The position numbers were made by a program, and so were the translations under genes. A DNA stretch of 64,000 nucleotides from Clostridiales bacterium Firm_14 (GTDB lineage Bacteria; Bacillota; Clostridia; Saccharofermentanales; Saccharofermentanaceae). The number at the start of each line of letters is the position of its first letter. The stretch's first letter is position 1. The stretch spans positions 186,001 to 250,000 of the forward strand of contig LVAT01000008.1 of NCBI GenBank assembly GCA_001604135.1. The letters run 5' to 3'. Of this stretch, positions 19,561 to 34,566 are shown piece by piece. The notes under the pieces were generated by a model that made no database searches, had not been told where the DNA came from, and saw only the letters and a program-made list of their open reading frames with translations.

Positions 19561-19748
19561 TTTCTAAGTCCTCAAATAATGGACTTGTTCAGCCTCAATA
19601 TGGGGCTTTGGAGGCCGTAAGTTACGGACTATTTAGATTTATAATAATTATTTTATTTTTTAAGGTATAATAGTGTCATAATTGCTAAATCTGTCTTTTG
19701 GCTAAATCTAAAGGTCAGATTGGCGGGGCGAAGGATGGACACAGGCGA

Positions 19749-21371
19749 ATGAATAAAAAGGAGTTGGAAATCTCATACTCTGTTCTAAGGAGATGTGCAC
19801 TTGTTTTTATTGCATTGCCGATGCTCTGCTTTTTCATCGGATGGCTTAAATGGTATTGGGCTGTTCCGGCCTGCCTTGCTTTAGTTATCTGCATTCTCTC
19901 TTTGGATGACAACAACAAGCTGTTAAGATTGTTTTTCAAGAAGAAAGCTGAAAAGAGCGTATCACCTGATAATGACAGGAAGCTTGTTATCTCCCGGAAA
20001 ATGCTTATCGCGGTAATACTTGCTGCATTCGCATATCTTTTCTTCTGCGGCGTTGGAAGACTGTGGTCTCAGAGTGATGACTACCTCTGGAGAAATGCGA
20101 TATTCAGGGATCTTATAGTTAAGAAGTGGCCGGTCTTCTATGATGCATATGACGGCGCACTCTCATATTACATCGGCACATGGCTGCCGGCTGCGATCGT
20201 AGGTAAATGCGCTTATCTAATAGGAGCCGGCACGGAACCTTCATTCATGGTTGGTAACGTTACGCTCCTGATCTATTGCACATTCGGAATGAGCGTGCTC
20301 TTCCTGCTGCTTCTCATGTATTTCAAGACAACAAAACCCAAGCATGTCGCTTTCATCATCATCGGTTTTGTCTTCTTCTCCGGAATGGATTTTGTAGGAA
20401 ACGAGTTTAAGATCGACAGCTGGCACATCGAGTGGTGGGCTCTGACTTTTCAGTATTCGTCCCTGACTACATGCCTGTGCTGGGTATTCAATCAGACTAT
20501 TATCCCATGGGTATGTACGGCACTCCTGCTTCATGAGAAGACAATATCCAACTATGTTCTGATCGGAATGGCATGTTTATTCTGCGGCCCTTTCCCGTTC
20601 ATCGGTTTCTTTGTTTTCTGTCTGGCAATGGGAATAAAGCGACTGGTGGATATGGTAAAGGAAAAGAAGGGAAAGGACTTTGTAAAAGAGGTCTTCTCGG
20701 TTTCCAATGTCTGCTCGGTATTCTTTATATTCCCGATCATCGGATCTTTCCTGACTGCCAATACCCTGATGAGCAATTACAAGTCTGATGTGCCTATCTT
20801 TCTGCCGCCGACATGGTGTTTTGAGAATTACATTCTGTACATTCTTTTCCTGCTGTTCGAAGTGCTGATCTTTGCGGTGCTGATCGCAAAGCCGAACAGG
20901 AAGAACTACTTGTTCTACGTGATGCTCGCACAGCTTATCATCTACCCGATATTTAATGTCGGCATTAATTCGGATCTTACCATGAGATCTTCCATACCCG
21001 CGATCTTCATGCTCTATGTATTCTGCTATCAGTACATGCTGACAAATCCCATGATCAGTCCCAGAAATCCTAAGGCTAAGAGCAAGGAAAACTTTGAGAG
21101 TCTGATCTCAAGGATCAATCTGCTTCACATAGTGCTTGTTATCTGTCTTCTTATCGGAGCCATTACTCCCGGAGTCGAACTCGCGAGGGGATTTGGCAGA
21201 GTATATTACAGAGGTTTGAATGACCGTGCAACGGATTTCGTCATAACTTTGGAAAGAGACTATAATCCTGTGCCCTATGAGGAGCGGGATGCATGGCCGC
21301 CGACGAATTTCGTTGCCCTGAATTATGATGAGACGATCTTCTTCAGATATTTTGCAAGAAAGAAAGGATAA
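19749..21371 (+). CDS. Polytopic membrane protein of the glycan locus (GT-C/Gtr-like)
   Basis: About 540 residues with roughly ten to eleven hydrophobic segments. After the second segment pair lies an outside-type loop QSDDYLWRNAIFRDLI carrying acidic residues as in GT-C glycosyltransferases that use polyprenyl-phosphate sugars. No known domain is recognised with certainty. Context supports a glycosyltransferase: CDP-sugar genes follow, and GtrA/GtrB-like genes lie 3-5 kb downstream. The start is uncertain. ATG 19749 has AAGGATGG 12 bases upstream, and TTG 19698 would add 17 residues. TATAAT at 19666-19671 is a likely -10 box. Its stop is four bases before rfbF. Confidence 0.7.
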   Translation: MNKKELEISYSVLRRCALVFIALPMLCFFIGWLKWYWAVPACLALVICILSLDDNNKLLRLFFKKKAEKSVSPDNDRKLVISRKMLIAVILAAFAYLFFCGVGRLWSQSDDYLWRNAIFRDLIVKKWPVFYDAYDGALSYYIGTWLPAAIVGKCAYLIGAGTEPSFMVGNVTLLIYCTFGMSVLFLLLLMYFKTTKPKHVAFIIIGFVFFSGMDFVGNEFKIDSWHIEWWALTFQYSSLTTCLCWVFNQTIIPWVCTALLLHEKTISNYVLIGMACLFCGPFPFIGFFVFCLAMGIKRLVDMVKEKKGKDFVKEVFSVSNVCSVFFIFPIIGSFLTANTLMSNYKSDVPIFLPPTWCFENYILYILFLLFEVLIFAVLIAKPNRKNYLFYVMLAQLIIYPIFNVGINSDLTMRSSIPAIFMLYVFCYQYMLTNPMISPRNPKAKSKENFESLISRINLLHIVLVICLLIGAITPGVELARGFGRVYYRGLNDRATDFVITLERDYNPVPYEERDAWPPTNFVALNYDETIFFRYFARKKG

Positions 21372-21375
21372 GCGC

Positions 21376-22158
21376 ATGAAGGTAGTAATCTTAGCCGGCG
21401 GTTACGGAACCCGTATTACTGAAGAAAGCCAGTTCAGGCCTAAGCCTATGATCGAGATCGGCGGAAAGCCTATCTTGTGGCACATCATGAAGGAATATTC
21501 CCATTTCGGGTATAACGATTTTGTTATCTGTGCAGGATACAAGCAGCACATGATAAAGCAGTGGTTTGCGGATTACTTCCTGCGCTGCAGCGATGTCACT
21601 TTCGATTACTCCGAAGGCAACAATAATATGATCGTTCATGAGACATCCATCGAACCGTGGAAAGTTACAGTCTGTGATACCGGATACAGCACGATGACCG
21701 GTGGCCGTGTCAAGAGAATTGAGAAGTTTATCGGAGACGAACCGTTCATGCTGACCTACGGTGACGGTGTCTGCGATGTAGATATCAATAAGCTCGTTGA
21801 ATTCCATAAATCACACGGAAAGATCGCTACACTTACTTCAGTAGTTATCGAGCAGCAGAAAGGGATCCTCGACATAGCTGAGAATAATTCAGTCCGTTCG
21901 TTCCGTGAAAAAAGCTTATCTGACGGTGCCATGATCAATGCAGGGTATATGGTGCTCCAGCCGGAAATCTTTAAGTATATCGAAGGCGATAACACCGTAT
22001 TTGAGAAGGAACCTCTGGAAGCTCTCGCATCCGAAGGACAGCTGATGTCATATACACACAGAGGTTTCTGGCAGTGTATGGATAACGCACGTGAGAAAGA
22101 TATCCTCGAAAAACTCTGGGAATCCGGCAGGGCTCAGTGGAAGAGCTGGGAAGACTGA
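21376..22158 (+). CDS. rfbF: Glucose-1-phosphate cytidylyltransferase
   Basis: Makes CDP-glucose from CTP and glucose-1-phosphate, the first step to CDP-3,6-dideoxyhexoses. The nucleotidyltransferase signature LAGGYGTRITEESQFRPKPM, IGGKPILWHIMKEYSHFG and the metal-binding YGDGVCDVD are near identical to family consensus. Length 260 residues is standard. The start is ATG 21376 with AAAGGA upstream; a longer upstream frame would run into the previous gene. It is first of rfbF-rfbH-rfbG, which differs from the rfbF-rfbG-rfbH order of enterobacteria. Confidence 0.95.
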   Translation: MKVVILAGGYGTRITEESQFRPKPMIEIGGKPILWHIMKEYSHFGYNDFVICAGYKQHMIKQWFADYFLRCSDVTFDYSEGNNNMIVHETSIEPWKVTVCDTGYSTMTGGRVKRIEKFIGDEPFMLTYGDGVCDVDINKLVEFHKSHGKIATLTSVVIEQQKGILDIAENNSVRSFREKSLSDGAMINAGYMVLQPEIFKYIEGDNTVFEKEPLEALASEGQLMSYTHRGFWQCMDNAREKDILEKLWESGRAQWKSWED

Positions 22159-22189
22159 TAGACAAAACAAACGAATGGGAAATTTAAGT

Positions 22190-23527
22190 ATGCGTAATTG
22201 GAATAACGAAGCAGATGCAAGAGAAGAGATCCTGAAGCTGGTAGAACAGTACTATCACGATTTCAAGGAACAGAAGAAGGAATTCGTTCCCGGAGACCGA
22301 ATCAACTACGCTTCGCGTGTTTATGACAGTGAGGAAATGACTAACCTTGTTGATTCCGCACTGGAATTCTGGCTTACAAGCGGCAGATATACTGAGCAGT
22401 TCGAGAAGGAATTCGCAAAGTATCTGGGTGTGCGCTTTGTAAATCTTGTTAACTCAGGTTCTTCCGCTAATCTTCTTGCTTTCATGACGCTTACTTCACC
22501 GCTCTTGAAGGAGCGACAGGTCCTGCCCGGTGATGAGATGATCACTGTAGCAGCAGGATTCCCGACTACGGTTACACCTGCAATTCAGTATGGTGTTGTT
22601 CCTGTGTTCGTAGATGTTACGATCCCTCAGTACAACATTGATGTTACCAAACTTGAAGCAGCACTTTCCGATAAGACCAAAGTGGTCATGATAGCTCATA
22701 CATTGGGAAATCCGTTTGATCTTAAAGCTGTTAAGGCTTTCTGTGATAAACATAATCTCTGGCTCATTGAAGATAACTGCGACGCATTGGGAAGTGAATA
22801 TGTTCTTGACGGCAAGAAATATCTTACGGGTACCGTAGGCGATATCGGAACTTCTTCTTTCTATCCGCCTCATCACATGACGATGGGTGAAGGTGGAGCG
22901 GTTTACACAAACGATCCGCTGCTCAATAAGATCGTCAGATCATTCAGAGACTGGGGCAGAGACTGCTCTTGTCCTTCAGGAAGAGATAATCTCTGCGGTC
23001 ACCGTTTTGACGGTCAGTTCGGAGAGCTTCCCAAAGGTTACGATCACAAATATGTTTATTCGCATTTCGGATACAACCTCAAAGCAACTGATATGCAGGC
23101 TGCAATAGGCTGTGCTCAGATAAAGAAATTCCCTTCTTTTGTTGAGAGAAGAAAGCATAATTTCAAGAGGCTTTATGAGGGCCTCAAAGGAACTGAAGGA
23201 ATAATCCTTCCTGAAGCCTGTGAGAATTCAGATCCTTCCTGGTTCGGATTCCTTATCACTTGCAAGGAAGGAATTGATCGTAAAAAGGTCGTACCATTTA
23301 TTGAATCCAAAGGAATACAGACAAGAATGCTGTTTGCAGGAAATCTCACAAAGCACCCTTGCTTTGATCAGATGAGAGCAAACAAAAAAGGTTACCGTAT
23401 CGTCGGTGATCTCTCAAATACTGATTACATCATGGAGAATTCTTTCTGGGTCGGTGTATATCCGGGAATGACAGATGAGAAGATTGATTATATGGCTGAG
23501 ACGATAAAGGAAGCGATTAAGAATTGA
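22190..23527 (+). CDS. rfbH: CDP-4-keto-6-deoxy-D-glucose-3-dehydrase (E1)
   Basis: PMP-dependent, 2Fe-2S enzyme that removes the C3 hydroxyl. It has the aminotransferase class V/DegT fold, but the PLP lysine is replaced by histidine in FYPPHHMTMGEGG, the mark of the dehydrase. The cluster ligands are visible as RDCSCPSGRDNLCGH, the C-x-C-x7-C part of the motif. Length 445 residues is normal. ATG 22190 is preferred to ATG 22175 because GGGAA lies upstream. The usual E3 reductase partner (DdhD/AscD) is not found in this window, so another electron donor must serve. Confidence 0.95.
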   Translation: MRNWNNEADAREEILKLVEQYYHDFKEQKKEFVPGDRINYASRVYDSEEMTNLVDSALEFWLTSGRYTEQFEKEFAKYLGVRFVNLVNSGSSANLLAFMTLTSPLLKERQVLPGDEMITVAAGFPTTVTPAIQYGVVPVFVDVTIPQYNIDVTKLEAALSDKTKVVMIAHTLGNPFDLKAVKAFCDKHNLWLIEDNCDALGSEYVLDGKKYLTGTVGDIGTSSFYPPHHMTMGEGGAVYTNDPLLNKIVRSFRDWGRDCSCPSGRDNLCGHRFDGQFGELPKGYDHKYVYSHFGYNLKATDMQAAIGCAQIKKFPSFVERRKHNFKRLYEGLKGTEGIILPEACENSDPSWFGFLITCKEGIDRKKVVPFIESKGIQTRMLFAGNLTKHPCFDQMRANKKGYRIVGDLSNTDYIMENSFWVGVYPGMTDEKIDYMAETIKEAIKN

Positions 23528-23558
23528 ATAAGCAGGCGGCTGTTTTGAGGAAAAGAAA

Positions 23559-24665
23559 ATGATCAAAGATTTCTATCGCAACAAAAAAGTTCTCATTACT
23601 GGACATACGGGTTTTAAAGGAACCTGGATGTGTGAGGTCTTGATAAATCTTGGTGCGGATGTATACGGTTACGCATTAAATCCACCGACGGAACCGAGTT
23701 TGTTTGAAATAAGCAATATGGCAGAGCGGATCCATTCTTATGAAGGTGATGTAAGAGATCTGGGACATTTGAAGGAAGTGTTCTCGGAAGTTCAGCCCGA
23801 GATCGTTATTCATATGGCTGCCCAGCCACTTGTACGCGAATCTTACAAGAATCCGGTATATACCTATGACGTCAACGTTATGGGAACGGTTAACATTCTC
23901 GAATGTGTACGTATTACCGAATCAGTCAAGTCATTCGTAAACGTAACTACTGATAAGGTTTATCGCAACTTCGAATGGGAAAGAGGTTATAAGGAAGACG
24001 ATATTCTAAATGGTTTTGACCCTTATTCCAATTCCAAATCGTGTTCGGAATTAGTTACGAGCTGCTACAAGAATTCTTTCTTTGGCGGTGAGACCGGTAT
24101 TATGAGAGATGGCAGAAAAGTCGCCATATCTACATGCCGTGCCGGAAATGTTTTGGGCGGCGGCGATTTTGCGACAGACAGGATAATTCCTGACTGCATC
24201 CGTGCCGTTCAAAAAGGTGAACAGATAATTGTAAGGAATCCTAATTCAACACGCCCTTATCAGCATGTGTTAGAGCCCGTTGTAAGTTATCTCACGGTTG
24301 CCGCTGAGCAGTATAACGACATAGCAAAGGCAGACTGTTATAACATAGGTCCTGATGAGGGTGACTGTGTAACAACAGGCATGCTTGTTGATCTATTCTG
24401 CAGCAAGTGGAATGAAGTTGCCAAGGCAAACGGACTTCAGGAAGCATCCTGGTTAAATAAGTCTGATGGCGGTCCGCACGAAGCAGGTTTTCTTAAGCTT
24501 GACAGTTCAAAGATATATGCCGAACTCAATATCCATAACAGATGGCATATTGATACCGAGATGGATAAGATCACTGAATGGACAGCCGCTTATTTAACTG
24601 GTGGCGATACTTTAAAAATTATGGATAAACAGATCCATAGTTATTTGGAGCTTTTGGATCTATGA
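23559..24665 (+). CDS. rfbG: CDP-glucose 4,6-dehydratase
   Basis: Converts CDP-glucose to CDP-4-keto-6-deoxyglucose, the substrate of RfbH. Extended SDR with NAD motif GHTGFKGTWM (TGxTGFxG), the family-specific TTDKVY and catalytic YSNSK. DRIIPDCIRA and RPYQHVLEP are typical of RfbG/AscB. Length 368 residues is standard. Its stop overlaps the GtrA gene start by four bases (ATGA). Confidence 0.95.
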   Translation: MIKDFYRNKKVLITGHTGFKGTWMCEVLINLGADVYGYALNPPTEPSLFEISNMAERIHSYEGDVRDLGHLKEVFSEVQPEIVIHMAAQPLVRESYKNPVYTYDVNVMGTVNILECVRITESVKSFVNVTTDKVYRNFEWERGYKEDDILNGFDPYSNSKSCSELVTSCYKNSFFGGETGIMRDGRKVAISTCRAGNVLGGGDFATDRIIPDCIRAVQKGEQIIVRNPNSTRPYQHVLEPVVSYLTVAAEQYNDIAKADCYNIGPDEGDCVTTGMLVDLFCSKWNEVAKANGLQEASWLNKSDGGPHEAGFLKLDSSKIYAELNIHNRWHIDTEMDKITEWTAAYLTGGDTLKIMDKQIHSYLELLDL

Positions 24666-25123
24666 AAAAGTTTATAACGGTAGTTTTCGAAAAACTCCAT
24701 ATTAAAGTATCGGAAGAAAAGATAGAGACTCTGGCTCAATTCATTAAATTTGGTTTAGTCGGATTAAGTAACACATTGCTTAGCTATGCCATTTACTTGT
24801 TGACACTGCTTATATTGAGTCCGTTGAAACTATCCTGGGATTATTTTGTTGCCAGTTTTTTAAGCTTTGTACTTAGCGTATTATGGTCATATTTTTGGAA
24901 TAACCGTTTTGTATTTAAGCAGGATTCAAAGAAACGCAGTTTTTGGAAAAGTTTATTTAAGACTTATCTTTCATATGCCTTTACGGGTATTATTCTGGGA
25001 AATATACTGCTTTATGTTTGGGTAGCTTTATTAGGTATCCCTAAAACGTTAGCACCGCTTCTGAGTCTTGTTATAACTGTTCCTCTGAATTTCCTGTTGA
25101 ACAAGTACTGGGCTTTCCATTGA
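24662..25123 (+). CDS. GtrA-like flippase
   Basis: Small membrane protein of 153 residues with four hydrophobic segments. It carries the GtrA_DPMS_TM pattern: FIKFGLVGLSNTLLSYAIY at the first segment, VLSVLWSYFWNNRFVF in the middle and LNFLLNKYWAF at the end. GtrA proteins are thought to flip polyprenyl-phosphate sugars across the membrane. Start and rfbG stop share ATGA, implying coupled translation. From here on the sequence is visibly richer in A and T than upstream. Confidence 0.85.
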   Translation: MKKFITVVFEKLHIKVSEEKIETLAQFIKFGLVGLSNTLLSYAIYLLTLLILSPLKLSWDYFVASFLSFVLSVLWSYFWNNRFVFKQDSKKRSFWKSLFKTYLSYAFTGIILGNILLYVWVALLGIPKTLAPLLSLVITVPLNFLLNKYWAFH

Positions 25124-25254
25124 GGCATTTGTTGAAGAGAAAGTGATAAAATATTTATGCTTATTGAGTGCTTTGGACATGTTGATAGCGAGCTAAAACA
25201 AAAGAGTAAGCTGAAAATCTTTATGATTTCTTACTGAAGTATGAGGAGAATCAG

Positions 25255-26202
25255 ATGAAGAAAATTTCCATAGCGAGTTCTTGTTATAACGAGTCTGCTA
25301 ATATTGAAACTTTATATGACGAGTTAATTAAACAGATTGATAAGTATCCTGAGTACGAGTGGGAAATAGTTTTAGCGGATAATTGCTCAACAGATAACAC
25401 TGTCGAATTGCTCCGTTCTTTGGCTGAAAGGGATAAGCGTGTTAAGGTAATATTGAATCAGGCGAACTATGGCCCGGACAATTCCTGCATAAATGCTTTT
25501 TTTGCTGCCACGGGAGATGCGGTTATTATTATGGCATCTGATCTTGAAGATCCCCCGGAATTAATCCCCCAGTTTATTGAGGCTTGGGAGAGCGGATATA
25601 AAGTTGCAATGGCTCAATATTCTTCTCGAACAGGAAATCCGATAACAGCTTTATTCCGTAAGATCTATTATAAGATAATTGCTTCTTTGACCAGTGTAAA
25701 TGTCGAGAATAATGTTACCGGATTTGGAATATATGACAAGTCGGTTGTAGATACTATTCGAGGTTTAAATGAATACAGTTTTGTTCTGAGATTTTTATGT
25801 CCGGAATTGGGATATAAGATAAAATACATTTCTTTTGTTAAACCAAAACGCAGAGGCGGCCGGTCTTCATATTCGTTTCTTCGTTATTATAACTATGCTG
25901 TTGAGACTTTGGTGCTTACATCACATGCCCCTCTTCACATGGCTTGTTTAGTAGGATTTGTAATGTCGTTAATAAGCATTTTGGTAGCGTTGTTTTATTT
26001 CGTTATGAAACTGGTTAATTGGTACACTTTTGATTTCGGTTTTGCGCCGATCATGATAGGTTTGTTTTTTCTTGGCGGCGTTCAACTGTTCTTTATCGGA
26101 ATCATAGGTGAGTATCTTTCAAGCGCGATCAAACGTGTAACCATAAGACCTTTTGTAATCGAAAAAGAACGCATTAATTTTGATGATGAAGAAAACAAAT
26201 AA
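25255..26202 (+). CDS. GtrB/DPMS-like family 2 glycosyltransferase
   Basis: A 315-residue GT2 enzyme. ASSCYNESANIETLYDEL begins the GT-A fold, ADNCSTDNTVELL follows, then ASDLEDPPELI, the DxD-equivalent seen in dolichol/undecaprenyl-phosphate glycosyltransferases. Two membrane segments near residues 225-285 and a short basic tail complete the GtrB layout. It would load a sugar onto undecaprenyl phosphate for the GtrA-like flippase. GAGGAG precedes the ATG. The 131 bases before it show no clear terminator or promoter. Confidence 0.88.
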   Translation: MKKISIASSCYNESANIETLYDELIKQIDKYPEYEWEIVLADNCSTDNTVELLRSLAERDKRVKVILNQANYGPDNSCINAFFAATGDAVIIMASDLEDPPELIPQFIEAWESGYKVAMAQYSSRTGNPITALFRKIYYKIIASLTSVNVENNVTGFGIYDKSVVDTIRGLNEYSFVLRFLCPELGYKIKYISFVKPKRRGGRSSYSFLRYYNYAVETLVLTSHAPLHMACLVGFVMSLISILVALFYFVMKLVNWYTFDFGFAPIMIGLFFLGGVQLFFIGIIGEYLSSAIKRVTIRPFVIEKERINFDDEENK

Positions 26203-26231
26203 ATATTCGAAAAGAGAGAGCTATATCAACC

Positions 26232-28025
26232 ATGAAAGTTTCTGATTTCATAATGGATTTTCTTGTTAAGCAAGGCGTCAAGCATCTGTTTTTGTTGTCG
26301 GGTGGTGGAATGATGCATCTTTTGGATGCAGCCCAAAGATGCAAAGAACTTGAATTAGTATTCAATCTTAACGAGCAGGCTACCGGAATATGCGGTGATG
26401 GTTATGCTCAATATACCGGTAATATAGGAGCATGTATGTTGACGACCGGTCCCGGTGCAACAAATGCAATCACAGGTTGTGCTGGTGCCTGGCTTGACTC
26501 GACGCCTGTAATTTACATAAGCGGACAGTGCAGAACCCAACAGATGGGACAGCTTCGTGGGCTTAGAATATACGGAGCACAGGAAGTAGCTATTATTCCG
26601 TGTGTGACACCTATAACTAAATATGCTGTTACTATCCTGGATAAGAACCTTATAAGATATCATTTGGAAAAGGCCCTTTATCTAGCGACACATGGAAGAA
26701 AAGGTCCTGTTTGGATCGATGTTCCGTTGGACATTCAAGGCGCTGATGTCGATGTGGATTCTCTTGTTGGCTTCAACAATGAATCAGAAGGTCTTGAACT
26801 GCCAAACCCGGTGAGTGTAAGTGATATTTCTAAAGTATATGAGTTGCTTAATGCTTCTCTGCGACCGGCTATTTTGTTTGGACATGGAGTAATAGCGGCA
26901 AAACGACAGCAATTAATTCGGAATATATCCGAGAAATACTCTATTCCAATGTTGTGTACTTGGCGTGCAAAAGGCGTTTTCGGTGATGATGAAGACCTGT
27001 TTATGGGTTGTCCCGGAATTCCGGCAGTGCGTTATTCAAATTATGTCCTTCAGAATACAGACTTCTTATTGATAATAGGAACCCGTTTGAATCCTGCGAT
27101 TACTGCATATGATGAGCAGAGCTTTGCTCCCAATGCAAAGAAAGTAATGGTCGATATAGAAGCGGCTGAAATAGACAAACTGGATATGCCATTTGCTTTA
27201 AAGATAGTGGCTGATGCAGCCGATTTCCTGGACGCCATGGCTGCTAATGAACAATTATATCAGCATAAAGACAGAGACAAATGGTTGAGTTATTGCTCTA
27301 GAATGAAGAAAAAATACCCATTAAACAAGGAGATTCAACCAATCGATCAAGAGAATAAGGTCGACGGATATAAATTCGGAGAACACTTGTCGAATTATAC
27401 AACAGCTGAAGATGTGTTTGTTGGTTCTTCTTCCGGCAGAACATGCGGCATTTCGCATATGGCATATAAGTTGAAAAAAGGCCAGCCTTTCGTTACTTCA
27501 ATGGGAATTGGGTCCATGGGCTGGGTTTTGCCAAGCGCTATTGCATGCTGTTTTGCTTCCGGAAAGAAGAGAACGGTAATAATGGAAGGAGATGGAAGTC
27601 TTCAGCATAATATTCAGGAATTACAGTTGATAAGCACATATAAACTGCCAATGAAAATATTTGTTTTGGTAAATGGCGGATATGCAAGTATTTATGCCAT
27701 GCAAAGAAATAATTTCGCCAGCAGATTTGCCGGCTGTACTCCGGAGAGCGGACTTACTCTTCCTGCAGTTCGGGATATAGCAGCTTTGTATCACTTGCCA
27801 TATTATTGTATTCACAACGATAATGAGATTGACGGTGTATTAAGCGAAGTAATGGCAGATGATAAGCCCTGTCTTTGCGAGATTGTTTGTTCCAGGCAAT
27901 TTGATGAAATTCCAAAATCGGTTACCGTGGCAAATCCTGATGGTACTTTCTCATCTATGAAATTAGAGAATCTGTATCCTTTTGTCGATCCGGAAGAACA
28001 GAAAGAAAACATGCCGAACTGGTGA
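26232..28025 (+). CDS. ThDP-dependent acetolactate-synthase-like enzyme, possibly YerE-type
   Basis: A 597-residue thiamine-diphosphate enzyme with the three domains of the acetolactate synthase family. Catalytic glutamate 48 sits in NLNEQATG. The ThDP/metal motif GDGSLQHN near 453 ends with LVNGGYASI, the GDG-x(25)-N pattern. In a CDP-deoxyhexose locus this points to YerE-like chemistry: transfer of a two-carbon acetyl unit from pyruvate to the C4 ketone of CDP-3,6-dideoxy-4-keto-glucose, making a branched yersiniose-type sugar. That link is inference from context; a plain acetolactate synthase is less likely because ilv genes are absent nearby. GAGAGAG lies upstream of the ATG. Confidence 0.8.
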   Translation: MKVSDFIMDFLVKQGVKHLFLLSGGGMMHLLDAAQRCKELELVFNLNEQATGICGDGYAQYTGNIGACMLTTGPGATNAITGCAGAWLDSTPVIYISGQCRTQQMGQLRGLRIYGAQEVAIIPCVTPITKYAVTILDKNLIRYHLEKALYLATHGRKGPVWIDVPLDIQGADVDVDSLVGFNNESEGLELPNPVSVSDISKVYELLNASLRPAILFGHGVIAAKRQQLIRNISEKYSIPMLCTWRAKGVFGDDEDLFMGCPGIPAVRYSNYVLQNTDFLLIIGTRLNPAITAYDEQSFAPNAKKVMVDIEAAEIDKLDMPFALKIVADAADFLDAMAANEQLYQHKDRDKWLSYCSRMKKKYPLNKEIQPIDQENKVDGYKFGEHLSNYTTAEDVFVGSSSGRTCGISHMAYKLKKGQPFVTSMGIGSMGWVLPSAIACCFASGKKRTVIMEGDGSLQHNIQELQLISTYKLPMKIFVLVNGGYASIYAMQRNNFASRFAGCTPESGLTLPAVRDIAALYHLPYYCIHNDNEIDGVLSEVMADDKPCLCEIVCSRQFDEIPKSVTVANPDGTFSSMKLENLYPFVDPEEQKENMPNW

Positions 28026-28030
28026 TAATA

Positions 28031-28906
28031 ATGACTAAGATCTTACTTACAGGCGGAAGCGGTTTTATCGGCAGAAATCTCTATGAACAACTTAGAGATA
28101 AATATGACATTTTTGCTCCGAGACATAAGGAGCTGGATCTTTTGGATTTTTCTTCATTACAGCAATTTGTTAAGAAGAATAATATTGAAGTCATAATCCA
28201 TTCTGCTGTTCATGTGCCTGCCTTTAACGGTCTTGAAAAGGAATTCTTTAATGACATGCAGATGTTTTGGAATTTAGAGAGGCTTAGTCAGGATCTGGAT
28301 AAGATCATATATTTTGGTTCCGGCGCAGAATATGATAAGCGCTATGACATTCGTAATGTATCCGAGTCTCAATTTGGTGCAAGCATACCAGTCAGTGAAT
28401 ATGGACTTGCGAAATACACGATGAATCAATTTGCCAGACGGAGCAGTAATATCTATAATCTCAGACTGTTCGGAGTATTTGGAAAATACGAACTTTGGCA
28501 GATCAAGTTTCTTTCAAACCTTTGTTGTAAAGCGGTTTATGAATTACCGCTTACGATTAGAAAGGATTGTTACTTTAATTTTTTGTTTATTGATGATTTG
28601 GTAAAGATAACCGATTCATTTATTAACATGAAGCCTAGATACCATGACTATAATGCTTGTCATGATAATGAATACCTGCTGAGTGATTTGGCAAAAATGG
28701 TTGTTGAGGTGAGCGGGAAAGATCTGGATATAGTTATGCTCTCGGATGAACGCAATTTGGATTATTCGGCCAGCAATAAGCGTCTGCACGGCGAACTTCC
28801 GCAATTGGAAATAACTCCTATGAAAAGATCACTTGAAAAGCTTTATCAATATTATATGGATAATCGCGACCAGATAGATTTTGATGTTCTGAAAGAAACT
28901 CGATGA
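28031..28906 (+). CDS. NAD(P)-dependent SDR epimerase/reductase
   Basis: Extended SDR of 291 residues with nucleotide motif LTGGSGFIGRNLYEQL and active-site tyrosine in SEYGLAKYTMNQ (YxxxK). VFGKYELWQIKFLSN matches the nucleoside-diphosphate-sugar epimerase/reductase group. Directly after the ThDP enzyme it would fit a YerF-like reductase of the branched sugar or a CDP-sugar C4 reductase. ATG 28031 with GGTGA upstream is preferred; a GTG at 28022 overlaps the preceding stop. The sequence is AT-rich. Confidence 0.75.
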   Translation: MTKILLTGGSGFIGRNLYEQLRDKYDIFAPRHKELDLLDFSSLQQFVKKNNIEVIIHSAVHVPAFNGLEKEFFNDMQMFWNLERLSQDLDKIIYFGSGAEYDKRYDIRNVSESQFGASIPVSEYGLAKYTMNQFARRSSNIYNLRLFGVFGKYELWQIKFLSNLCCKAVYELPLTIRKDCYFNFLFIDDLVKITDSFINMKPRYHDYNACHDNEYLLSDLAKMVVEVSGKDLDIVMLSDERNLDYSASNKRLHGELPQLEITPMKRSLEKLYQYYMDNRDQIDFDVLKETR

Positions 28907-28930
28907 GATTAACTGTTTAACGGGGGAGAA

Positions 28931-30562
28931 ATGAAAGTTCTTGCAATAATTCCGGCGTGTGAAGGCTCAACAGAATTGCCTAACAAGAATCTGAGGGTGA
29001 TCAAAGGGATCCCGATGATTTGTTATACGATTCGCAATGCTTTGTCATCGCGTTATATTACAGATGTAATAGTTTCGAGCAATTCTAAGGAACTGTTATC
29101 TCTTGCCAGACAGATGGGCGCTATTACAAGAGAAAGATGTCAAGATCTGTGCAACCCGAAGGTTTCAATCGATAAGGTTGTTTGGGATGTGTTCAATCAG
29201 TTGTCCCTTGACGACTACGACTGCGTTGTAACTATGCAGCCGATTTCTCCTACACTGAAGGCGGAAACTTTGGATAAGGCATTTGAGATGCTTTTTTCGC
29301 AAGACTTTGACACGGTAATATCGGTCAGGAATCAGGCCCATTTCTATTGGACGATGAAAGATGATGTACCGGTCCCAATGCAAAGCAAAAGGGTAAACAG
29401 ACATTTATTAGATCCATTTTATAAAGAAACAGGAGCTTTTTTGATTTCCAGGAGTTCTTGTATTAGGGAAGATTCACGCATTGGACAAAAGGTAGGTCTG
29501 TATGAGCTGTTTGGAGATGAAGCGATAGATGTCTATAGCTTTGGTGATCTCAAGCAAGTGGAAAATGCTATGAACAGGCAGTTGACCGCTTTTTATGTTA
29601 ACGGAAATGAGACAATCGGAATAGGCCATATTACCCGTTCATTGCAGATCGCGGATGAGATGTTTTCAAAACCGGACATATATTACGATTACAACAGAAC
29701 GACGGCCGCCAGCTTCGGCCAGACAACTTATAATTTAGTTCCTGTTGACGGCGATCACGGTTTTGTTGAGAGGATGAGAGACAGCAACTATGACATCATC
29801 ATCAATGATGTTTTAAGTACGGAGCGTGACTTTATGCGGTCGCTCAAGGATGCTGCACCAATTGCCAAGATTATTAATTTTGAGGACGAAGGTGAGGGTG
29901 CGAGTTGTGCGGATTATGTTATAAATGCACTTTATGAGAATTCAAGTGAAAGCAATGCAATTTGTGGCAGCCGATACTTTATTATTCCTAAGCAGTTTTT
30001 AATCTATCATGAGATCGATATTGGTGATTGCGTTAAAAATGTAATTGTTACTTTTGGCGGAGCAGATCCTCAAAACTATACGGAAACTGTTTTGAATATA
30101 ATTTCCCAGCCGCTTTATAAAGATGTCCATTTTTATGTTGTTGTAGGAAAGATCAATAAACGGATCGATGTAATCAAGAAATATGAGAGTTTCACTAATG
30201 TTTCAATACTATATGACATTGATAATATGGCAGAAATAATGTGCCGTTGTGATGTCGCAATTAGTTCGAGAGGGCGGACCTGTTTTGAGTTGGCTGCTTT
30301 GGGAATCCCTACCCTTTCAATAGCCCAGCACGAAAGAGAAGAAAGACATACATTTGTATGTGAAGCAAACGGTTTTGTGATCTTAGCACCTGAGTCTGAT
30401 GTTAAAGTAATAGAAAACGCGATACATGACCTTGTTTTTTCTGACAGGGAGAATAGACAGGAATTGCAGAATAAAATGATCATTCATGATTTGAGGAGCG
30501 GACGCCGGAATATTGCTAATATATTAAATAATTTGGAGGGATATTCTAATGAGAAACAGTAA
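28931..30562 (+). CDS. Fusion of acylneuraminate cytidylyltransferase and SpsG/PseG-like glycosyltransferase-fold hydrolase
   Basis: A 543-residue two-domain protein. Residues 1-225 match CMP-nonulosonate synthetases (NeuA/PseF/LegF): LAIIPA at the start, PNKNLR and TMQPISPTL. The canonical PARGGSK loop reads PACEGST, so Arg is Cys10 and Lys is Thr14. Residues about 230-535 match SpsG/PseG nucleotide-sugar hydrolases: GNETIGIGHITRSLQIA with the catalytic His, VTFGGADPQN and SSRGRTCFELAALG. PseG acts before sugar condensation and PseF after it, so the fusion joins non-adjacent steps. GGGGGAG precedes the ATG; the end overlaps neuB by 14 bases. Confidence 0.85.
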   Translation: MKVLAIIPACEGSTELPNKNLRVIKGIPMICYTIRNALSSRYITDVIVSSNSKELLSLARQMGAITRERCQDLCNPKVSIDKVVWDVFNQLSLDDYDCVVTMQPISPTLKAETLDKAFEMLFSQDFDTVISVRNQAHFYWTMKDDVPVPMQSKRVNRHLLDPFYKETGAFLISRSSCIREDSRIGQKVGLYELFGDEAIDVYSFGDLKQVENAMNRQLTAFYVNGNETIGIGHITRSLQIADEMFSKPDIYYDYNRTTAASFGQTTYNLVPVDGDHGFVERMRDSNYDIIINDVLSTERDFMRSLKDAAPIAKIINFEDEGEGASCADYVINALYENSSESNAICGSRYFIIPKQFLIYHEIDIGDCVKNVIVTFGGADPQNYTETVLNIISQPLYKDVHFYVVVGKINKRIDVIKKYESFTNVSILYDIDNMAEIMCRCDVAISSRGRTCFELAALGIPTLSIAQHEREERHTFVCEANGFVILAPESDVKVIENAIHDLVFSDRENRQELQNKMIIHDLRSGRRNIANILNNLEGYSNEKQ

Positions 30563-31592
30563 ACCATATGTTATTGCAGAGATTGGTGTAAATTATTACG
30601 ACACGGCCAAGATTATGGGAATTACACCGCTTGAAGCGGCAAAACTATATATAGAAAAAGTTGCTGAAGCAGGCATTGACTGTGCGAAATTCCAGTCTTA
30701 CAAAGCAGGAACGATAGTATCGAAAAACTCTCCCGCGTATTGGGATACAACGAAGGAACCGACTAAGACACAATATGAGTTGTTCTTGAAATACGATCAT
30801 TTCGGCGCGAATGAATATAGGGAACTTGCCCAGTATGCACATTCAAAGAACATAGATTTTACTTCTACACCATTTGATTATGCATCAGCTGATTATTTGG
30901 AGGATTTAGTCGATTTTTATAAGATAAGTTCCTCTGACTTGACTAACCTGCCGTTTATTCGTTATATCGGTCAGAAGAAAAAGCCGGTGGTTATTTCCGT
31001 TGGAGCTGCATACTTATCAGAAGTAGATGAAGCTGTTCGCACTTTGAAAGACGCTAATTGTGATGACATCACTATTCTTCATTGTGTCCTTTCATATCCT
31101 ACAGACCCCAAGAATGCAAATTTGAGAATCATTACAACGTTAAAAAAGGATTTTCCTGATCTTAAAGTTGGTTTCAGTGATCATGTTGCTCCTGACGACA
31201 CGATGATGACTCTTGCCACGGCGTACCTTTTAGGTGCCGAGGTCATAGAAAAGCACTTTACACTGGATAAGACTTTGCCCGGCAATGATCACTATCATGC
31301 CGGTGATCCGGATGACTTCAAAAAAGCAATATCTAACTTTAAGTGGATAGATACTGTTATGGGAACTGAAGAAAAGACAGTACTTGCATGTGAACAAATA
31401 CCAAGGCGAGAAGCGCGGAGATCGTTAGTTTTAACTCGTGACATGAAGGCCGGCGAGATTATAACCCCAGAGGACTTAATGCCAAAGCGTCCGGGAACCG
31501 GCATCTCTCCTAAATATACGGATATAGTTATTGGACGTACAGTAAAAAAGGATCTCAAAGAGGATACTATCCTTACTTGGGATATGGTTTAA
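30549..31592 (+). CDS. neuB: Nonulosonate (sialic/legionaminic/pseudaminic acid) synthase
   Basis: Condenses phosphoenolpyruvate with a six-carbon amino sugar to a nine-carbon acid. It has the NeuB TIM barrel with AEIGVNYYDTAKIMG at the start, AKFQSYKAG, KISSSDLTNLPFI, HCVLSYPTDPKNANL, GFSDHVAPD and EKHFTLDKTLPGNDH. A C-terminal SAF (antifreeze-like) domain spans about 285-345 (RRSLVLTRDMKAGEIITPEDL). Length is 347 residues. TTGGAGGG before the ATG gives the start inside the preceding gene. Which acid is made cannot be told; the amino-sugar supply genes are not in the window. Confidence 0.93.
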   Translation: MRNSKPYVIAEIGVNYYDTAKIMGITPLEAAKLYIEKVAEAGIDCAKFQSYKAGTIVSKNSPAYWDTTKEPTKTQYELFLKYDHFGANEYRELAQYAHSKNIDFTSTPFDYASADYLEDLVDFYKISSSDLTNLPFIRYIGQKKKPVVISVGAAYLSEVDEAVRTLKDANCDDITILHCVLSYPTDPKNANLRIITTLKKDFPDLKVGFSDHVAPDDTMMTLATAYLLGAEVIEKHFTLDKTLPGNDHYHAGDPDDFKKAISNFKWIDTVMGTEEKTVLACEQIPRREARRSLVLTRDMKAGEIITPEDLMPKRPGTGISPKYTDIVIGRTVKKDLKEDTILTWDMV

Positions 31593-32689
31593 ATAGCAAA
31601 CAAAACTGTATCGGTTCCACAATAACCCCAATAATGCCGGAGAAACAATTTGTACTTTGAATCAATACTCAAGATTGTTTGGGGAATGGTAATTAAATCA
31701 TCGATTTTATGATAAACACTTACTGCTAATTTGGGATGATATTGCCGAATTGAAAAGCTGGCACCAGACAAGGCTGAAAGTTCCATGCCTTCAATATCCA
31801 TCTTCAGATATGTGTATTCTTCTTTAATAAAATCATCGATTCTAACTATTTGTATTTGGGAAGAGTCTTGTTCCTTTTCTCTCGAAATATGGGCGAAGTC
31901 ATCTACTCCTTTTGCTCCGGCCAGGAATAACACTTCGTTTTTGTCACCAATTCCATAGGGATAAAACCGCACTCGTTTGTCTTTTATTGTTGAATTGGCT
32001 ATCTCAATATTTTCCTGTTTTGGCTCGAACCCTATGATTTTTGAAAACTTATTGTTAGTGGCCTTAATAAACTCAAGAGCCGTGTCTCCGTTAAAAGCAC
32101 CAACATCAAGGAATACTTCGTGGTCAGAAAGATTCGATCTGATTATCTCAGGGAAATATTGACTGCCGGAGGCTATCTCATTGTAACAAAATACGTTGTT
32201 AGTTATCGAACCTTCGATTATTTTATTCAGCGTAAGTCTGGATTGATCATCAGACAGAATATCATATAAGGAATTCAATTCATTTATGTGTTTAGAAAAA
32301 AAGGCACGCCTATCTTGGTGATTGCAGTTCTGGATAATATCCAGTGAAGGATCAAAGGTAATAATATTATAATCCGTCGAGATTGAATTGAGCTGTTTGG
32401 TTATGGCTGCATAATGAGAAGGAGCAGAGATAATAATATAAGCCCCCGTATATTTTTTTAATTCTTCAACATTGCAAATTTTATAGCCATCATAGAATGT
32501 TCCGTTTTTTGAAGGATCATTATCAACGATGAAATCAGGCCTGAGTCCATGTTTTGTTAAAAAACCAATATACAAACTGATAGATGCGCCGACACCAAAC
32601 AATATTATCGGTTGATGTGAGTGATTGTAGCGGCGGAGAAATCCGTCAGCACTGTTATTTAGAGAATTAAAAAAATCAAGTGTAAACAT
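31589..32689 (-). CDS. FkbM-family methyltransferase with N-terminal Rossmann-like domain
   Basis: A 366-residue protein. Residues about 25-125 contain IILFGVGASISLYIGFL and VDNDPSKNG, a nucleotide-binding-like domain often found ahead of sugar-modifying enzymes. Residues about 180-350 are a SAM methyltransferase of FkbM type: VFLDVGAFNGDTALEF, IIGFEPKQENIEIA and YLKMDIEGMELSAL. It probably O-methylates a sugar of the surface glycan. Its stop overlaps the end of neuB (convergent). No clear ribosome binding site precedes its ATG. It is the last gene of the reverse trio beginning near 34.5 kb. Confidence 0.85.
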   Translation of the reverse strand: MFTLDFFNSLNNSADGFLRRYNHSHQPIILFGVGASISLYIGFLTKHGLRPDFIVDNDPSKNGTFYDGYKICNVEELKKYTGAYIIISAPSHYAAITKQLNSISTDYNIITFDPSLDIIQNCNHQDRRAFFSKHINELNSLYDILSDDQSRLTLNKIIEGSITNNVFCYNEIASGSQYFPEIIRSNLSDHEVFLDVGAFNGDTALEFIKATNNKFSKIIGFEPKQENIEIANSTIKDKRVRFYPYGIGDKNEVLFLAGAKGVDDFAHISREKEQDSSQIQIVRIDDFIKEEYTYLKMDIEGMELSALSGASFSIRQYHPKLAVSVYHKIDDLITIPQTILSIDSKYKLFLRHYWGYCGTDTVLFAI

Positions 32690-32783
32690 TTATATACTAC
32701 GTGTTTCTTAACCATTCAGTTTTGAAAATGTGTTTTGTTGATCAGTCGTTGGCTTTGTTAGATCTGATAATGAAAAGCATAAC

Positions 32784-33554
32784 TTACCAAGCAGTTTGTC
32801 CGCCGTCAACCATAATATTTATACCGGTTATATATTTGGATGCTTCAGAAGCAAGAAATATCATTACTCCAACAAGGTCTTCAGGATAACCGATGCGACC
32901 AAGCATAGTCTTATCCTCTAATCTTTTTTTGAAGAGTGCATTCTCCTGAACGTTGGTATGAGGGTATGATCCCGGACTGACGCTGTTAGCTCGAATTCCA
33001 TATTTAGCTAGATACGAAGCGCAAAACTTAGTAAGTTCTACGGTTGCTGCTTTTCCGGCTCCATAATTTGGTGTGCTGCTAAAAGGTGTATCAAAATATG
33101 TTCTGGGATCAGGAGCTCCTACAGCATATAACGAACCGATATTAATAATGCTTCCGGAAGTGCTGTTTTTCATATACGGGATTGCTTCACGAATTGACCT
33201 AAAGGTGTAACCAACAGTTCCGTCAATTCCTTTGGCCCAATATTCATCATCCATAGTCTCAACATCGTTTAAAACGCCAGCACCTAAATTTGCAGCCAAC
33301 GTAATAAGAACATCTATACATTCGTTTGCTCCGGCTGCCTCTTTCATAACATCTTTGATGTTGCTGGTATTTCCGAGATCGCACTTGATATAGTGTGCAT
33401 TGGTATCTTCAATTGGAGAAATGTTCCAATCGACAACAACAACTTCAGCACCAAAATCAGAAAGTCCCTTTACTATTTCTCTGCCAAGATAACCACAACC
33501 ACCGGTAACAACAGCTTTTTTTCCATTAAGTGAAAACAAATCGTTATAACTCAT
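32784..33554 (-). CDS. Classical SDR oxidoreductase (PtmA-like)
   Basis: A 256-residue short-chain dehydrogenase with VTGGCGYLGREIV (TGxxxGxG), LAANLGAG, the catalytic Ser region INIGSLYAV and Tyr-Lys in NYGAGKAATVEL, ending GINIMVDGGQTAW. The extended loop with DPRTYFDTPFSSTPNY resembles PtmA-type oxidoreductases found in nonulosonate/flagellin glycan loci. AGGAG lies before the ATG. It is 12 bases behind the Gfo/Idh/MocA gene and probably acts in the same sugar-modifying step. The substrate is unknown. Confidence 0.88.
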   Translation of the reverse strand: MSYNDLFSLNGKKAVVTGGCGYLGREIVKGLSDFGAEVVVVDWNISPIEDTNAHYIKCDLGNTSNIKDVMKEAAGANECIDVLITLAANLGAGVLNDVETMDDEYWAKGIDGTVGYTFRSIREAIPYMKNSTSGSIINIGSLYAVGAPDPRTYFDTPFSSTPNYGAGKAATVELTKFCASYLAKYGIRANSVSPGSYPHTNVQENALFKKRLEDKTMLGRIGYPEDLVGVMIFLASEASKYITGINIMVDGGQTAW

Positions 33555-33566
33555 ATCTCTAGTCTC

Positions 33567-34499
33567 CTACTCTCCTTTAGATATTTTTAAATTCTCGAAT
33601 GCATTGGGTATTGGATTAATATTCAATGCAGAACCAGAACTGTTTATCATTGAAATAAAATAACGCATCTCGTTTTGATAGAATTGATCATCAACGCCAT
33701 AATCAAAGCTGGTTGATGCTAATTGATGCTCAACAGTATGCTTATTATAGTCAACTACAATAACATCGTCTTTTGTGAAGAATTCCACTCTTCTGTTATT
33801 GGTTCTGCCGAAATAGTCCAAGTGAACTTCAATTAATTTGTCATTATATTCAAGAATATAAGTCGCCAAATCCGGTGCATTCATTTCGAGATTTGAATAC
33901 TTGCCGGCAACTCGATGTGTTTTTTGAGGAAAACCAAACAATGAAGTAACATAGTCGATTTCGTGTAACGAATCAATATCAACACCCCCGCCTCGTTCCT
34001 TAAAGCAGCGGAAACTGAGACGATAATCTCTGCCTTTCTGCCAATTTGGCATATAACTGGAGAATATTACACGCGCTGAATATACTTCAGAGTTATTAGC
34101 GATATTTTTTAGTTCTTCGTAATACTTCGAAAATCTTATAGGACAAGCAACATAATAAACAGAATCACCAGTAGGAAGAACAGAAGAAATATCATAATTC
34201 ACATCATCAAAAATGGGTTTTTCAATAAATAAATGGTGACATCTGCTCTTAAGTAACAAAATATTATCATAATGCGTTCTTGTCTCATCAGTTATAAACC
34301 CAACATCATAATGATCTGATAAGGATTTATTATCCCGTATTTCAAGATTGATTAAATTCTTAATATCAGGAGGCAAAACACGTTCAGTCTTTCGCATTAC
34401 ATCAATTGTCAAAGGAATCCCTTGTGATTTACATATGTCGGAAAGATTCCGTATATGACGGCTCCCTATAGAACCTGCTGAAGTAAATAATGCTTTCAA
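33567..34499 (-). CDS. Gfo/Idh/MocA-family oxidoreductase
   Basis: A 310-residue nucleotide-sugar-type oxidoreductase. The N-terminal Rossmann start is KALFTSAGSIGSRHIRNL, where the usual GxGxxG is SAGSIG. FIEKPIF carries the EKP motif, and the C-terminal domain contains GGGVDIDSLHEIDYV with the active-site histidine. The start is best placed at TTG 34499, seven bases after AGGAGG; a GTG at 34505 is too close to that site. It leads the reverse operon MocA-SDR-FkbM, facing neuB. Two oxidoreductases together suggest oxidation and re-reduction of a sugar, as in C-epimerisation. AT-rich codon use as in its neighbours. Confidence 0.85.
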   Translation of the reverse strand: MKALFTSAGSIGSRHIRNLSDICKSQGIPLTIDVMRKTERVLPPDIKNLINLEIRDNKSLSDHYDVGFITDETRTHYDNILLLKSRCHHLFIEKPIFDDVNYDISSVLPTGDSVYYVACPIRFSKYYEELKNIANNSEVYSARVIFSSYMPNWQKGRDYRLSFRCFKERGGGVDIDSLHEIDYVTSLFGFPQKTHRVAGKYSNLEMNAPDLATYILEYNDKLIEVHLDYFGRTNNRRVEFFTKDDVIVVDYNKHTVEHQLASTSFDYGVDDQFYQNEMRYFISMINSSGSALNINPIPNAFENLKISKGE

Positions 34500-34566
34500 A
34501 AGCACACCTCCTATACTTGAATTTTACGAATCTTTATATCAATTATAATTTATTTATAACTAAATA

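Follow-up and report, generated by a model that had tools for sequence, protein, structure and literature searches.

The ulosonic acids made by NeuB-family synthases are 3-deoxy-4-hydroxy-2-oxo acids, and the sugar aurantose is a C14 tetradecose. Among ThDP-dependent carboligases, YerE couples a unit derived from pyruvate to CDP-3,6-dideoxy-4-keto-glucose and takes only pyruvate and 2-oxobutyrate as donors (PMC12247030). The same review reports that pyruvate is not a substrate of ErwE, whose preferred donors are functionalised and larger than C4, for example 4-hydroxy-2-oxo acids, with CDP-4-keto-3,6-dideoxyglucose as acceptor, that MygE accepts C3 to C8 donors with benzaldehyde, and that the assumed branching enzyme for aurantose had yet to show ketone acceptance (PMC12247030). 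For the meningococcal CMP-Neu5Ac synthetase, a mutational study names Arg12 and Lys21 as important nucleotide-binding residues, reports a D209A mutant whose kinetics were not measurable and a D211A mutant with kcat lowered 15,000-fold, and places Q166A among the mutants with no or strongly reduced activity (PMC2901514).

Here we describe a locus within a 64,000-nucleotide stretch of Clostridiales bacterium Firm_14 DNA (the window) that shares CDP-4-keto-dideoxyhexose genes and a YerE-like enzyme with the YerE, ErwE and JanthE carboligase systems of the yersiniose and erwiniose pathways. Those systems draw on pyruvate or a short hydroxy-oxo acid, whereas the donor proposed here is an ulosonic acid made by NeuB. 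The linked set is an apparently dead CMP-ulosonate synthetase domain, a conserved NeuB and a YerE-like ThDP enzyme.

A synthetase-hydrolase fusion in a polysaccharide cluster

The open reading frame at 28931-30562 (+ strand) encodes 543 amino acids in an intact frame, with an ATG start codon and GGGGGAG ahead of it. Pfam, NCBIfam, AlphaFold2 and Foldseek all identify two fused halves, CMP-ulosonate-synthetase-like at the N-terminus and PseG/SpsG-like at the C-terminus. The N half has the PF02348 fold, with a match at residues 5-131 (64.5 bits against a cut-off of 22.6). The PseF-like match at residues 4-208 (TIGR03584, 81.7 bits) and the PseG-like match at residues 220-465 (TIGR03590, 105.8 bits) fall below their equivalog cut-offs of 205.7 and 153.55, respectively. 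The AlphaFold2 model of the window fusion, built on an input alignment of 29 fusions, has a mean pLDDT of 90.5; its top Foldseek matches are the CMP-sialate/CMP-Kdn synthetases 9t4z, 1qwj, 6ifd and 1eyr for the N half (TM by target 0.82-0.88) and PseG 3hbn for the C half (TM by target 0.75). The C half shares its fold and a GxGHxxR motif with PseG/SpsG UDP-sugar hydrolases, and differs from them in being fused and in scoring below the TIGR03590 cut-off. The motif is present in the window fusion, as an earlier note on this DNA had claimed.

The same note had stressed that the fusion joins two non-consecutive steps. This reading fits the known pathway order, and neuB, the gene for the intervening step, is present within the stretch fetched for 38 of the 41 other fusion loci, but the architecture is widespread and the emphasis was misplaced: with 41 other fusion loci compared, the architecture itself is ruled out as the novelty. 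The more informative feature, a link to a ThDP branching-enzyme gene, lies outside 28931-30562. The fusion gene sits in a compact polysaccharide cluster at 19698-34505, flanked by genes that by eye appear unrelated, with the following features:

19698..21371, + strand: large membrane protein that may be a GT-C enzyme or a ligase (weak match to Wzy_C, below cut-off)
21325..22158, + strand: RfbF, glucose-1-phosphate cytidylyltransferase, likely start 21376 (TIGR02623, 373.3 bits against a cut-off of 300.25)
22091..23527, + strand: RfbH, CDP-4-keto-6-deoxyglucose 3-dehydratase, likely start 22187 (NF011936, 719.3 bits against a cut-off of 423)
23559..24665, + strand: RfbG, CDP-glucose 4,6-dehydratase (TIGR02622, 414.4 bits against a cut-off of 278.45)
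24662..25123, + strand: GtrA-type flippase (PF04138)
25255..26202, + strand: GT2 glycosyltransferase, polyprenyl-phosphate type (PF00535; PgfS/ArnC-like under cut-off)
26232..28025, + strand: YerE-like ThDP-dependent enzyme of the decarboxylase superfamily, nearest among solved structures to JanthE (8rph), with the catalytic Glu in an NEQ motif and a GDG motif
28022..28906, + strand: NAD-dependent epimerase/reductase-like protein (family match; homologues in L072, L146 and L147)
28931..29575, + strand: N half of the fusion, residues 1-215, NeuA/PseF-like CMP-ulosonate synthetase fold with CTP/metal-site residues lost (PF02348, Foldseek, residue tables)
28958..28960, + strand: codon of Cys10, equivalent to the CTP-binding Arg12 of CMP-Neu5Ac synthetase (alignment, residue table; PMC2901514)
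29534..29536, + strand: codon of Tyr202, equivalent to Asp211, a catalytic Mg2+ ligand (alignment, residue table; PMC2901514)
29585..30559, + strand: C half of the fusion, residues 219-543, PseG/SpsG-like nucleotide-sugar hydrolase with GxGHxxR motif (NCBIfam, Foldseek, residue table)
30549..31592, + strand: ulosonate synthase of the NeuB family with a SAF domain, its ORF overlapping that of the fusion (Pfam, NCBIfam); compared motifs as in loci with no ThDP gene
31589..32689, - strand: FkbM-type methyltransferase (Pfam, NCBIfam)
32784..33554, - strand: SDR oxidoreductase with 78% identity to its counterparts in L072 and L146 (family match)
33567..34505, - strand: Gfo/Idh/MocA-like oxidoreductase with 58-61% identity to its counterparts in L072 and L146 (family match)

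Because RfbF, RfbH and RfbG pass curated cut-offs, the cluster can plausibly make CDP-4-keto-3,6-dideoxyhexose. Genes for all three lie near the fusion in the window, in G881 (locus L033) and in G649, and none was found in the stretches fetched for L146 and L147. Compared with solved structures, the ThDP enzyme matches 8rph best (311.5 bits; next 217.5), which is the YerE-like enzyme JanthE (PMC12188165). Among the 13 cluster genes, glycosyltransferase matches are confined to the GT2 family and the GT28-like domain in the PseG half. The window and L072 clusters have most of their genes in common.

No PseC-LegC-type aminotransferase ORF was seen in the fetched stretches of the window, L072, L146 and L147, and one lies near the fusion in L139. 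This 828-residue ORF (L139:12953-15439) scores over curated cut-offs for both PseC (residues 3-396) and a LegC-type aminotransferase (residues 416-771); L140-L145 carry a similar long ORF by weak match to RfbH, the family models having been run on L139 alone. A candidate nonulosonic acid precursor set near 73 kb of contig C8 in G000 was set aside, since by eye it resembles UDP-FucNAc genes. Five cluster genes (24662-26202, 28022-28906, 31589-32689 and 33567-34505) have a GC content of 0.34-0.37 against 0.45 for the window, which suggests acquired DNA. We rejected a phage or plasmid origin of the fusion: a scan of viral contigs found no relative, and the 55 plasmid records matched were all below 60% identity (15 listed). 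Plasmid relatives of the ThDP proteins came to one distant IlvB for the window and none for L072.

Residue loss in the synthetase half and its link to the ThDP gene

We numbered residues after N. meningitidis CMP-Neu5Ac synthetase, transferred through an alignment to solved enzymes. Reading the ORF bears out that the PARGGSK-type loop is PACEGST in the window fusion (residues 6-20, IIPACEGSTELPNKN). By alignment, the window carries Arg12 to Cys, Lys16 to Thr, Thr106 to Ile, Gln166 to His and Asp211 to Tyr, and keeps the equivalents of Lys21 (Lys19), Gln104, Arg165 and Asp209 (Asp200). The CTP-binding pair Arg12/Lys21 is thus reduced to Lys19, with Cys10 in place of the arginine, and the metal-ligand pair Asp209/Asp211 to Asp200, with Tyr202 in place of its partner. 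Compared with NeuA, PseF and LegF (PF02348, TIGR03584), the N half has the same fold and overall alignment and the four kept residues, and differs in Arg12 to Cys, Asp211 to Tyr, Gln166 to His and Thr106 to Ile and in a score below the PseF cut-off.

The two loop substitutions that the earlier note had singled out differ in weight. The Arg to Cys change at residue 10 holds up and is rare: the position is Arg in all four solved enzymes listed and in all 36 scorable fusions with no linked ThDP gene. The Lys to Thr change at residue 14 has no diagnostic value and is ruled out as the decisive one, as the same position is Val in PpNeuA and Arg in three of those 36 fusions. Beyond that note, the window also departs from the 36 at the otherwise invariant positions D76P, L80I, T105I, Q158H and D202Y.

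We compared homologous fusions drawn from overlapping samples: 391 genomes of the class (four full-length fusions), 115 of the window's own family (two), 397 of one related family (21, one a fragment and one split), a phylum sample of 398 (six), 116 relatives of G881 (three), 61 of one genus (11) and a genome-contig scan for close relatives (three). In a further set of 150 genomes, nine of ten matches were loci already known from the related-family search. After removal of copies, the comparison set held 41 fusion loci and the window (42 rows), of which 41 were scored at the equivalents of R12, K21, Q104, D209 and D211; L081 was left out of the residue count, its N half missing beyond a contig end. 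We dropped L063 and L226 as the same loci as L034 and L068, repeated copies of L033, L038, L039, L041 and L082, and L062 of G537, a distant match with an internal stop and two ORFs. Fetched stretches span at most about 20 kb and some end at contig ends (L039, L041, L081, L138, L142 and others), so the absence of a ThDP gene is less certain in some loci.

Five of the 42 fusion loci have a ThDP gene within the stretch fetched: the window, L033, L072, L146 and L147. All five ThDP-linked fusions have lost two or three of the five catalytic residues, and none of the 36 others has lost any (Fisher p 1.3e-6 with kinship ignored; an independent-pairs test of loss against ThDP gene yields two pairs, too few for significance). 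The losses follow two patterns. In the window and L033, Cys replaces Arg12 and either Tyr or Phe replaces Asp211; in L072, L146 and L147, Gln replaces Lys21 and Gly replaces Asp209, and L072 additionally has Lys in place of Arg12. Surveying homologous fusions for the same substitutions, as the earlier note had suggested, therefore shows the combined loss of R12 and D211 again in L033, from another genome and at 54% identity. The 36 fusions that keep all five residues, L034 and L139 among them, have the same architecture, with NeuB adjoining in nearly all; unlike the window, they have no ThDP gene in the fetched stretch. The GxGHxxR motif is present in all five ThDP-linked fusions, and the compared motifs of their NeuB proteins are unchanged.

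The changes are concentrated in the N half. Of 33 invariant N-half positions, six are changed in the window, five in L033, seven in L072 and five each in L146 and L147; of 36 in the C half, three are changed in the window and none in the other four. Leave-one-out comparison among the 36 fusions with no linked ThDP gene gives at most three changes in the N half and two in the C half. The Arg165 equivalent is Lys in L033 and Ser in six of these 36. Because Arg12 and Asp211 are gone together, the related set has lost Asp209 and Lys21, and changes hit N-half invariants far more than C-half ones, we favour loss of cytidylyltransferase function. Residue loss in the CTP/metal site is well supported, and from it we infer that the synthetase half is catalytically dead. 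Between the two options of the earlier note, another substrate or a binding domain, the data favour the latter; nothing points to another nucleotide, as the window N half shows no sign of a replacement site and has lost a metal ligand. The window and L033 share 59% identity across their N halves against 51% across their C halves, while in the other nine pairs of ThDP-linked fusions the N half is the less conserved. The closer likeness of the window and L033 N halves suggests that this half is still constrained, and its role may be that of a scaffold, a holder of the ulosonic acid or an enzyme with a new activity.

The synthetase site was likely, although not certainly, lost twice independently. 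In the C-half tree the ThDP-linked rows need three changes, at least two of them on starred branches. A single clade of the five is rejected by the NeuB tree (AU p 0.0002) and the joint tree (p 0.0004), but not by the C half alone (AU p 0.247), so the case for two losses rests on NeuB and on the different residues lost. The window fusion is fast-evolving, with an end branch of 1.1 in the C-half tree. It is 32-54% identical to other fusions, and its NeuB is up to 85% identical to those of loci with no ThDP gene; rates or histories therefore differ between the two genes. For 28931-31592 of the window, this means either very unequal rates of fusion and NeuB or a replaced NeuB.

The fate of the ulosonic acid

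In G000, G649, G1530 and G1515, PF02348 matches no CMP-ulosonate-synthetase-like protein other than the fusion. G000 has one other PF02348 match, GlmU (579 bits against a cut-off of 450), and G1515 two further weak ones, a GlmU-type uridylyltransferase and a ribitol-5-phosphate/IspD-type cytidylyltransferase. G000, G649 and G1515 are each at least 99% complete, and G1530 is 69% complete. G881, the genome of L033, encodes an intact PseF on another contig (L086; 284.9 bits against a cut-off of 205.7), adjoining an ORF that matches the C half of the fusion, along with PseC about 23 kb from the fusion (535.5 bits against a cut-off of 423.5) and two ribitol-5-phosphate/IspD-type PF02348 proteins. 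With an intact PseF and a PseC present, a pseudaminic-type acid in G881 could be activated in trans, which for this genome counts against the donor role proposed below.

As an independent check, we searched the related family for rfbH, which matched in 83 of 250 genomes, and fetched 40 loci, mainly the best-scoring. A ThDP gene is present in 17 of the 40, and no ORF in these loci has either half of the fusion as its best match. Four of the 17 encode an HMGL-like protein (L178:10491-12116, L183:6255-7676, L191:10830-12449 and L208:11439-13043) whose best NCBIfam match, below cut-off in all four, is 4-hydroxy-2-oxovalerate aldolase; three of these loci also have a related HAD phosphatase. One further locus, L209 of G595, combines the ThDP gene with a distant NeuB, a KdsC-like phosphatase, and SDR and Gfo genes; the phosphatase (L209:17344-18411) is fused to a GmhA-like SIS domain, adjoins NeuB and lies near the ThDP gene. 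G595 (three contigs, 96% complete) gave zero PF02348 matches, in a search whose control was positive in 11 of 14 genomes. The other 12 of the 17 have neither supplier, and their ThDP enzymes may use pyruvate. Across the rfbH and fusion loci, 22 ThDP sequences cluster by supplier type (four changes, where shuffling gives 8.8 on average and none of 200 shuffles went as low), near-copies contributing to this result.

Since NeuB products are 4-hydroxy-2-oxo acids, NeuB would be a natural supplier of an ErwE-type donor, and for an acid used in this way CMP activation would be useless. Taking these points together, we think it more likely than not that the ulosonic acid serves as acyl donor for ThDP-dependent branching of a CDP-sugar, free of CMP activation. 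The acid's role as donor, the product and the order of steps are inferred as follows. The PseG-type hydrolase half and the adjoining NeuB-type synthase would yield a 3-deoxy-2-ulosonic acid, a long 4-hydroxy-2-oxo acid, that would bypass CMP-sugar activation. The YerE/ErwE-like ThDP enzyme would decarboxylate it and attach the acyl group at C4 of a CDP-4-keto-3,6-dideoxyhexose supplied by RfbF, RfbG and RfbH. The epimerase-like enzyme would reduce the branched product, presumably at the new ketone by analogy with YerF, and the GT2 enzyme, GtrA and the large membrane protein would bring the composite sugar onto the surface. As NeuB motifs are kept and the synthetase site is lost, the acid is presumably still made and the CMP-joining step gone; in this proposal the CTP/Mg site was lost because CMP activation was no longer needed, and the dead domain would be kept as a scaffold or ulosonate holder.

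Other explanations have to be weighed against this donor role. The synthetase half could be dead and the acid meet another fate, through activation in trans, as a free intermediate or by a non-PF02348 enzyme, with the ThDP gene co-occurring through a travelling cluster. Polysaccharide genes do move in blocks, the window and L072 clusters are mostly alike, and G881 has its intact PseF and a PseC, but the three near-complete genomes G000, G649 and G1515 have no second CMP-ulosonate synthetase, and L033 and L147 combine ThDP gene, fusion, NeuB and residue loss with no SDR or Gfo gene in the searched stretches. The pairing of a distant NeuB with a ThDP gene in L209 and the clustering of ThDP sequences by supplier also speak against it, and we consider it unlikely. 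Less likely again is that the cluster makes two separate sugars, CDP-yersiniose from pyruvate through the ThDP enzyme and a CMP-nonulosonic acid through an altered, working synthetase half. A yersiniose-type sugar might need no more than the rfbF/G/H, YerE-like and epimerase genes, and the N half is folded in the AlphaFold2 model and still constrained in the window/L033 pair; the two-sugar reading conflicts with the loss of residues that bind CTP and the metal and that, when mutated, leave little or no activity (PMC2901514), with the link of that loss to the ThDP gene, with the single glycosyltransferase family besides the GT28-like part of the PseG half, and with G595, which pairs NeuB with a ThDP gene and has zero PF02348 matches.

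Neutral decay of one lineage, with no pathway logic, or a sequencing or annotation artefact would account for a fast-evolving window fusion with an end branch of 1.1. We hold this to be very improbable given the intact open frame, the recurrence of the R12 and D211 loss in another genome at 54% identity, a second set of fusions with losses of its own, and the retention of NeuB motifs and nearly all C-half invariants.

A broader version of the donor proposal is more speculative, and we hold it as doubtful. It would give ulosonic acids a second bacterial fate as C-C acyl donors built whole, minus CO2, into a CDP-branched sugar of about 14 carbons, with the synthetase domain as a nucleotide-free holder passing the donor to the ThDP enzyme. 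The holder reading draws on the window keeping the sugar-side Gln104 and Arg165 while the CTP/metal side is lost, although the Arg165 equivalent is replaced in L033 and in six of the 36 fusions with the full set. Among the matches listed, we found no literature joining NeuB or nonulosonic acids with YerE-like enzymes, and a search for Spirochaeta aurantia with tetradecose found none.

If true, the nonulosonic-acid and CDP-branched-sugar pathways would here be one pathway, offering a genetic route to very large branched sugars; the C14 of aurantose would be accounted for by a C6 unit joined to C8, the remainder of a C9 acid after loss of CO2. An annotation as 'pseudaminic acid cytidylyltransferase' would then mislead prediction of surface sugars, and the residue pattern of the synthetase would serve as a sequence test to tell NeuB clusters that supply free donors from those that produce CMP-sugars.
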